NCBI GenBank assembly: GCA_000806115.1
Contig: JWKQ01000001.1
Span: 89,784-153,783 of the forward strand
Direction of reading: 5' to 3'
Source of the DNA: an archaeon GW2011_AR5
Lineage (GTDB): Archaea > Aenigmatarchaeota > Aenigmatarchaeia > GW2011-AR5
DNA: 64,000 bases
The first letter of the stretch is position 1. Each line of letters starts with the position of its first letter. Below the pieces are notes generated by a model. The model was not told the DNA's origin, did not search any database, and saw nothing but the letters and a program-made list of their open reading frames with translations. A program made the position numbers and the translations under genes. Positions 10,435 through 51,339 of the stretch are shown here, piece by piece.

Positions 10435-10580
10435 TATAGCGAACCCAGAAAAGACGACATGAATTTTGGGTTCACTGATACAGGGAGAACCTTTGGTCTT
10501 TGCTGTACAGGTGAAGCAAAGCTTTACCTTGTAGCTCACAAGGAAATAAAATATATCCTTTGTTTCCTTGTAGAGCTATA
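10435..10580. repeat. double-hairpin intergenic element, copy A1 (with nested three-way junction element)
   Basis: TATAGC..GCTATA closing stem, GAACCCAGAA/TTTTGGGTTC hairpin, GCTCACAAGGAAA/TTTCCTTGTaGAGC hairpin. Confidence 0.6.
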
Positions 10581-31386: not shown

Positions 31387-31833
31387 ATGAAAATGCACAA
31401 TAAAATGAAATGTCGGCGCGTCGAACGGCTTCAAAAAAAAGGCTCAAAGGGCTATGTGTACACTCTGGAAGTGATGCTGGCGGTTTCCCTGATATTCGTC
31501 ACGCTAATACTCGTGTTCAGCAGCTCGCCGGAGGAGCCTGAAACGAACCTTGCCATAATGAAGCAGAACGGATACGACGCGCTCTTCTACCTCGACATGA
31601 CGGGAGACCTGAGGAATGCAGTTGCAAGGGGAGCCGTGTCCGAGATAGACGCGAATCTGACGGGCATACTTCCGCAGAATATCAGGTTCGACACCAATGT
31701 CTGCACCACTTCGTGCAACTCCACCGAACTCCCGTCAAACAGCACGGTGGTGACCGTCGATTACTATATAGGCGGATACAGGAGCGAGTACGTAGGCAAG
31801 AAAGTAAGGCTCTGGATGTGGAGGAAGTTTTAG
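31387..31833 (+). CDS. pseudopilin-like protein
   Basis: KGYVYTLEVMLAVSLIFVTLILVF N-terminal helix. Confidence 0.5.
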   Translation: MKMHNKMKCRRVERLQKKGSKGYVYTLEVMLAVSLIFVTLILVFSSSPEEPETNLAIMKQNGYDALFYLDMTGDLRNAVARGAVSEIDANLTGILPQNIRFDTNVCTTSCNSTELPSNSTVVTVDYYIGGYRSEYVGKKVRLWMWRKF

Positions 31834-31865
31834 ACCGATCCTTTTCTTTTAGAAAGAAAGGTCTA

Positions 31866-31920
31866 GATACAAGCAATTGAAGAATTGCTGTACAGAATGA
31901 ACTTTGTTCATTCTTGTATC
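31866..31920. repeat. three-way-junction element E1
   Basis: GATACAA-[GCAATT gaag AATTGC]-TGTACA-[GAATGAAC ttt GTTCATTC]-TTGTATC, all stems perfect. Confidence 0.65.
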
Positions 31921-32704
31921 ACCCCAAAGAAAATATATTATAAAAGGTGGAAAGATGAAAACGAAAATAAAGAACAGTTGTGGAAAACTATGTGAGCGCA
32001 AGCGAGTCCACAATAATACGTTCTTTTTTTCAAAACAGAATGACACTTTAGCGTCGTACACTCGGTTTTTTTCTTTTCAAGGAAAAAGGGTTAAGGGGCA
32101 GATGTTCGTCATAGCCGCGATATTCATGATACTCGGCTTCGTGCTTCTCCGCAACCTGCTGTCGCTGCCCGAGATTACGCAGGAGAAGGTTTACCAGGAC
32201 ACATCGTACCTTGACAAAAACCTCAGGAACCTGGAACGGGAATACAGTTATCTCGCCGGCACCGCGTCGATGCAGCCGAACGTGAATTTCTCCGGCAACC
32301 AGTACCTGCACAGCTTCACACAGCTTGTGCGCAGCGAGTTCGATGCAAAGGTGCTCTACGTCTACATTTACTCCAACGGCACGAGCAGCAACGTGTCAGT
32401 GACTATAGGGAACTTCATGAAGAACAACATGAGCGGGGTGCTGAACATAACAAGCGCGACGCCAACCGGCAGGACATTCTCGCTAAACGACACACATAAC
32501 ACGACGCTCGAGTTCAACTTGACAGCAGGGTGGCTGAACGCGACACTCAACTACACTATGCAGAACAGGGAAACAGTCGAGCGCCTTTATTTCAACGCGT
32601 CTACAAGGAACTATGTGCTCGGCTTCACGGACATGACGCTCCAGGAGCGCGGATTCCTCGTGAGATTCAAGAGCACATACAACAGGACGTGGATTATATC
32701 ATAA
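31904..32704 (+). CDS. pseudopilin-like protein (true start probably internal near KGQMFVIAAIFM)
   Basis: Hydrophobic N-terminal helix FVIAAIFMILGFVLLRNLL; upstream part looks like structured leader. Confidence 0.45.
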   Translation: MFILVSPQRKYIIKGGKMKTKIKNSCGKLCERKRVHNNTFFFSKQNDTLASYTRFFSFQGKRVKGQMFVIAAIFMILGFVLLRNLLSLPEITQEKVYQDTSYLDKNLRNLEREYSYLAGTASMQPNVNFSGNQYLHSFTQLVRSEFDAKVLYVYIYSNGTSSNVSVTIGNFMKNNMSGVLNITSATPTGRTFSLNDTHNTTLEFNLTAGWLNATLNYTMQNRETVERLYFNASTRNYVLGFTDMTLQERGFLVRFKSTYNRTWIIS

Positions 32705-41791: not shown

Positions 41792-42012
41792 ATGCAAAGC
41801 CGAAGAGCAGGATTGAAGTCTCGACGCCTTCATGCGGCGGTTTTTCACGAAAAGGAATTTCCACGCAGCCGCGAAAACGGCAGCTTCCCTCAAGCAATAG
41901 AGGACTTTGAATAATATATGTTTTGTTCAAAGTCCTTATTGCGAACTTTGACAAATTAAGGGGTTAATCAAAGTTCTCAATAATTTATATAGTACTGGCG
42001 ACAATTAATTTT

Positions 42013-43028: not shown

Positions 43029-43083
43029 GCGCCAGCTTGCGCCGCGGAATCTATACAAGGTGAAACGAAGTTTCACCTGTGCA

Positions 43084-43182
43084 GTTATAGTGAACCCAGA
43101 AAAGAATCTGGACATGAATTCTGGGTTCACAGATAGTTCCCAAGGAAGTAATATCTTGTTTATTTCCTTGGAGAACTATAAC
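43084..43182. repeat. double-hairpin intergenic element, copy A3
   Basis: GTTATAG..CTATAAC; TGAACCCAGAA/TTCTGGGTTCA; GTTCCCAAGGAA/TTCCTTGGaGAAC. Confidence 0.65.
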
Positions 43183-43696: not shown

Positions 43697-43849
43697 AAAC
43701 CCCTTTCTTTTGGGAAAAGAAAGTCCCTTGGGTTCAAAGAAAACATATTATCAACGTGGCTCACTGGCGTTCGCGTGAGCGCCACTGAAGAAGAAAGGGC
43801 TCAAACCCTAAGAAAAAGGCTATTTATTAAGCCCTGAAAAAGTGAGATT

Positions 43850-51282: not shown

Positions 51283-51339
51283 GATACGAGGTGATGTTTA
51301 CTTCACCTGTACAGCAAGACTAAATGTCCTGCTTGTATC
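51283..51339. repeat. three-way-junction element E2
   Basis: GATACGA-[GGTGA..TCACC]-TGTACA-[GCAaGAC..GTCcTGC]-TTGTATC. Confidence 0.6.

Follow-up and report, generated by a model that had tools for sequence, protein, structure and literature searches.

The three copies E1, E2 and E3 found in the window, the stretch of 64,000 nucleotides of archaeal DNA that was analysed, very probably represent a non-autonomous double-hairpin mobile DNA element. It measures about 50 bp, consists of two adjacent hairpins and is best read as a MITE- or REPIN-like element moved in trans. Comparison of filled and empty sites demonstrates insertion with a 2-bp duplication, dispersal, and frequent entry into or beside palindromes. 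The reduced genomes known from uncultured DPANN archaea thereby gain a mobile element of very small size whose filled and empty sites are precise. Moreover, RNA-like covariation can stem from mobile DNA that depends on its hairpins.

Architecture and pairing of the element

E1 occupies positions 31866-31920 exactly as the original prediction had written it, and its arrangement GATACAA..TGTACA..TTGTATC matched once, the figure for 100 dinucleotide shuffles being 0.00. The looser form GATAC..TGTACA..GTATC gave two matches (E1 and E2), again against 0.00 in shuffles. The element had also been said to recur at 51283-51339 (E2) and 10477-10537 (E3). The shared frame and TGTACA were indeed found there, but closing stems and arms are less perfect than claimed: E2 has a G-T in its closing stem and mismatches in places in arm B, while the closing stem of E3 contains a G-T and a single mismatch, and its arm A is mismatched in places. 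The features of the window are as follows.

31868..31918: E1 double-hairpin element, TA[CAAG-hairpinA-CTG-TA-CAG-hairpinB-CTTG]TA; the outer TA/TA is the target duplication, and the orthologous site in the congener G001 is empty, with a single TA
51285..51337: E2 double-hairpin element, lying upstream of a flavin-reductase-like gene (minus strand), about 31 bp from where that gene starts
10479..10533: E3 double-hairpin element, inserted into a FamA repeat at its central TA
43054..43089: degraded copy matched by the covariance model, with hairpin A and the central dinucleotide, without the second hairpin
10435..10580: FamA two-hairpin repeat (TATAG...CTATA), the target palindrome split by E3; the FamA match ends at query position 53, the TA
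43085..43181: element-free FamA repeat, a paralogous empty site whose central TA (43134-43135) is single
31832..31864: T-rich hairpin of FamC type, right after the upstream stop codon and adjoining E1; the same hairpin is found without E1 in G001

The core TACAWG-arm-CTGTACAG-arm-CWTGTA is conserved (31868-31918 in E1). Since it is dyad-symmetric and has no orientation, each copy is matched on both strands. In its general layout the element reads CA-W-[8-bp stem, 3-nt loop]-TG-Y'X'-CA-[8-bp stem, 3-nt loop]-W-TG and is flanked on either side by XY, the duplicated target dinucleotide (TA, rarely CA), the reverse complement of which stands at the centre. A typical arm has a stem of 8 bp and a 3-nt loop closed by C-G, and its 5' side is rich in purines. 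Exact double-hairpin arrangements numbered 101, overlapping loci being counted more than once.

Pairing, and not arm sequence, is conserved. In 21 aligned cores, standard pairs made up 96.4% of cells against 76.4% in shuffled and about 40% in slid arms, double-change cells numbered 85 against 25.5 in shuffles, and covariation reached 0.549 against 0.166 when shuffled. This bears out the original prediction that the arms are unrelated in sequence yet paired. Among 72 distinct cores the Watson-Crick share of arm pairs was 96.6%, and the deviations found in 1161 pairs (11 G-T against 14 A-C) show no G·U excess. TGTACA and the ends are invariant, as had been stated; variation is so slight in the TACA/TGTA ends and in CTGTACAG that they are uninformative on pairing. 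In near-identical copies, stem changes were mostly one-sided (the comparisons being few and non-independent), whereas pairing between the arms of unrelated copies was nearly perfect. Taken together, this fits pairing being required for copying and not at every resting site, and the one-sided changes suggest that inserted copies decay.

The original prediction also included a closing stem, P1, that would make the element a three-way junction, and this part did not hold: the two outermost bases of this stem are the target dinucleotide that was duplicated. The left, central and right dinucleotides are TA/TA/TA in 66 copies and CA/TG/CA in 7 copies. In the CA class, the outermost positions of P1 bring C opposite A and A opposite C, and the outer pairs are impossible, while the centre still pairs with each outer dinucleotide. 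The outer bases of the supposed closing stem pair in TA copies only because TA is self-complementary. Folding energies favour two plain hairpins over the junction, for E1 both as RNA (-12.9 against -12.8) and as DNA (-8.6 against -8.3), and in the best fold one hairpin runs on into the centre. A test for compensatory change in P1 failed, as the CA class breaks the outer pairs and 3 of 5 P1 pairs are invariant in alignment A1. W-W complementarity in P1 (60 of 72) was left out as evidence because dyad symmetry and shared descent yield the same. The element is a double hairpin, and a three-way-junction RNA is rejected on the CA class, the energies, the absent G·U excess and an orientation mix that follows the background.

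Copies, filled sites and empty sites

The source genome (G000), of the Aenigmatarchaeota, comprises 858 kb in 3 contigs and is 87.6% complete; the analysis of it covered loci retrieved by searches and individually extracted stretches. It contains 9 copies of the core pattern, and none were found with the reversed control. A covariance model, which had been proposed as a way to look for further copies and was built from the 21 cores, detected about 33 loci in this genome at a threshold of E <= 1e-3; the outcome that would have spoken against the idea, no copies and no covariation, is absent. A simple coding-potential caller places 34 of 36 copies between genes, and the orientation classes of the neighbouring genes (>> 16, <> 9, << 5, >< 4) approximate the background mix. 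E1 comes after the stop codon of a gene, E3 downstream of a T2SSF-like gene.

Among 60 genomes searched, the source genome included, 21 carry the element, with 1 to about 48 loci each, many of these having identical cores. In G007 and G020 the loci number about 44-48, and 7-8 of the cores are identical, compared with a single locus in the congener G001, and identical cores are found with different flanks inside G007 and inside G020. Within this set of 60, the element is absent from the other families of the order and from nearly all of the class. Such a patchy, multicopy distribution is the pattern expected of something spreading. A pattern scan of GTDB gave at least 120 matches, mostly due to chance, which were then scored by arm pairing. 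Among the matches listed, the well-paired ones (>= 0.79) from named genomes belong to Candidatus Aenigmatarchaeota, Woesearchaeota and one further archaeon, the closest named genome being RIFCSPLOWO2_01_FULL_48_10, of the window's genus. Also among those listed, three viral-contig matches scored 0.80-0.82 with short and poor arms, and no archaeal-like well-paired arms were observed in viral contigs with a loose pattern.

Target duplications, a suggested check on the original prediction, are seen when filled sites are compared with empty ones. At the E1 site, G001 has the same gene and the same T-rich hairpin, followed by a single TA (..CTAGG-TA-TCCC..); this alignment was made by eye because the congener has diverged (about 64-72% identity). 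At C1:317999, G002 reads ..ATCCC-TA-CTGGAAAG.. where the source genome reads ..GCCC-TA[element]TA-CTGGAAAAG... The FamA paralogues give a similar picture, as about 20 have one central TA and about 8, E3 included, have TA-element-TA. In the interrupted copies the match halves end at q53 and restart at q52, a 2-bp overlap, and two further FamA copies are filled at a second TA, in the loop of the second hairpin (H2). Moreover, removal of the element and one TA restored a palindrome, perfect or extended, at several further sites, examples being the hairpin at C2:250710 (GAGGG-TA-TCATG/CATGATACCCTC) and C1:311519, a loop site. Targets are often palindromes, which leads to nested hairpins. Joined flanks fold at a mean of -29.7, whereas the value at intergenic TA sites elsewhere is -19.5 (sd 6.6), although these targets are not independent because many of them are FamA copies. 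As several copies share one position in FamA or FamC, the spread may partly be composite amplification and not new insertions. Another candidate, 80 bp (window 32202-32281) missing from an otherwise 100% identical contig of the congener G003, was found to be coding sequence and no element.

Competing explanations and the putative mover

The conserved fold could be that of a structured RNA, either a three-way-junction small RNA or a cis-regulatory one, with P1 and the two arms as its functional parts. The strong covariation of the arms, the invariant TGTACA and ends, and the location of E2 about 31 bp ahead of where a gene starts are in line with it. Nevertheless, the broken outer pairs of the CA class, the lower stability of the junction, the lack of a G-U excess and the background orientation mix all argue against this explanation, as do the existence of empty sites and the contrast between most relatives, where the element is missing, and others that hold dozens of copies, many of them identical. 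In Rfam, no family was found above the gathering threshold for the element, the window's sole match being archaeal SRP RNA, and a search for an Rfam family or tRNA identity found none. A structured RNA is thus very improbable, and no line of evidence suggests a functional RNA. It is hardly credible that the copies are bidirectional transcription terminators or hairpins at mRNA 3' ends. Copies are intergenic, and E1 and several relatives are preceded by a stop codon plus a T-rich hairpin, but the element has no T-run, is absent from orthologous gaps and is spread over tandem, divergent and convergent gaps roughly as the background is. As for the T-rich hairpin next to E1, it is a separate unit and perhaps itself a terminator.

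Palindromes flanked by short repeats are known to be lost precisely, and such a loss can mimic an empty site. Replication slippage or template switching at short repeats would then create or remove palindromes and produce apparent empty sites without any transposition, and composites of FamA and the element are common. On the contrary, the same core motif is found in unrelated contexts (the FamA centre, the FamA H2 loop, FamC and plain intergenic DNA) and G007 and G020 hold identical cores in differing flanks, so that this explanation is improbable. A classical IS630/Tc1-mariner MITE, the transposase of which was recently lost or lies on a missing contig or another replicon, is a narrower form of the mobile-element reading and is compatible with it. 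As expected of a MITE, the element is short, non-coding, multicopy and dispersed, with a 2-bp target duplication, TA (CA in a subclass). Its CAWG/CWTG ends are inverted repeats but very short, and the transposase and recombinase searches described below gave no autonomous partner that shares them. TA duplication is typical of the IS630 superfamily, as in RUP, and DDE_3 genes are present in the element-bearing G005, G014, G015 and G020. However, G000, G002, G003, G007, G026 and G030 have many copies and no DDE_3, the sole IS630 end found, from a relative (TAGTACTATGACAATTTAA), is unlike CAWGG, a CA-target class exists and arm sequence is not conserved. This narrower form appears rather unlikely.

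For the double-hairpin mobile element itself, the size is too small for a gene, which implies that something acts in trans. Searches of G000 (87.6% complete) for Y1 (PF01797), DDE_3/IS630, TnpB and serine recombinase as autonomous partner found none; the mover is therefore lost or yet to be named. The hairpins, as extruded or single-stranded DNA, may serve as substrate in trans for a transposase or recombinase, and the candidate enzyme would recognise the end and centre motifs CAWG/CTG-XY-CAG. Recognition would probably depend on the invariant CA..TG ends and the CTG-XY-CAG centre, with the hairpins as the probable structural component. If spread were limited to well-paired copies, arms would remain complementary as their sequence drifts, and copies would decay once inserted.

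At its centre the element nearly always carries the reverse complement of the dinucleotide duplicated at the target (TA/TA/TA, CA/TG/CA). This match between centre and target is the most novel thread, and it rests on few CA-class copies that are partly related. If these copies arose independently, the element could specify its own two-base target and depend for its movement on an uncharacterised recombinase of archaea that works on DNA folded into hairpins. Such a system would be unlike known IS families, with palindromes that grow nested in each other; we consider this distinctly unlikely. Together with the missing transposase, the TA/CA match raises a testable question on how hairpin-only elements move.

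Known systems and neighbouring repeats

REPINs are REP doublets that form hairpins and are associated with RAYTs (Bertels & Rainey 2011, PMC3116915). Like the element, they are short palindromic extragenic doublets that replicate, with conserved ends, a hairpin interior with compensatory changes, and insertions into or beside each other (PMC3116915). However, a REPIN is one long hairpin of two inverted REPs, whereas the element has two hairpins about a CTGTACAG centre; RAYT (Y1) genes lie near REPINs, while G000 has no PF01797 match and the element has a 2-bp TA/CA duplication. RUP, Correia/NEMIS and ERIC are also non-coding, intergenic repeats of less than 200 bp with terminal TA and target duplication, and RUP was proposed to be moved by IS630-Spn1 (PMC2229807). 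They are bacterial, conserved in sequence and 107-155 bp long (ERIC 127 bp) (PMC2229807), whereas the element is archaeal, of about 50 bp, conserved in pairing and not in arm sequence, and has the dyad centre CTGTACAG. The YPAL/RU-2 repeats of Yersinia resemble it in having targets that span or adjoin dyad symmetry, with filled and empty sites known, but they measure 168 bp, with duplications of 3-26 bp and without terminal TA (PMC2229807).

Fungal mitochondrial double-hairpin elements (Paquin, Laforest & Lang 2000, cited in PMC5910586) likewise have two hairpins and are mobile and intergenic. The element shares their two tandem hairpins, mobility and variable arms, a likeness of working for which common ancestry is not claimed. 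Mitochondrial hairpin repeats lack flanking duplications (PMC2800124), whereas the element has one of 2 bp. Archaeal MITEs of Sulfolobus, Halobacterium and Haloquadratum are also small, non-autonomous mobile DNA; the review that describes them names no DPANN host, the term being absent from it, and its hosts are unrelated archaea (PMC10969869). No archaeal record of such double-hairpin elements was found in the literature searched. In its working the element resembles REPINs, TA-duplicating repeats and fungal double-hairpin elements, but as tested it lacks features that define REPINs and IS630 MITEs.

Several other repeats were observed. FamA (window 43085-43181; G000 C1 and C2) is a 97-bp two-hairpin repeat, TTATAGTGAACCC..GGGTTCACAGATAGTTCCCAAGG..CCTTGGAGAACTATAA, with about 28 copies and flanking TA; it is probably a second, larger double-hairpin mobile element. 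FamB (window 41896-41982) is a dispersed two-hairpin repeat (GGACTTTGAA../GAACTTTGAC..) with many matches in congeners. FamC (window 43697-43774, and around E1) combines a T-rich hairpin past a stop codon with AAAGAAAATATTATAA ahead of the next gene. Its presence varies at orthologous gaps, and it is possibly a mobile terminator-promoter unit.

Larger palindromes were also found in G000. At C1:182812-183839 (L271:2313-3340), about 350 bp of nested palindromes lie within a FamA hairpin loop, followed by more hairpins, and adjoin a gene for a cysteine-rich, secreted-looking protein. Large hierarchical palindromes with the outer stem CTGTAGAAAA..TTTCTACAG contain the element at C2:250710 and C2:296456. 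Finally, in this genome without a TnpB or Y1 gene, hairpins like CCCACGACTTTAGTCGTGGG occur in the flanks of C1:395708 and C1:414267, and these resemble IS605-type ends.
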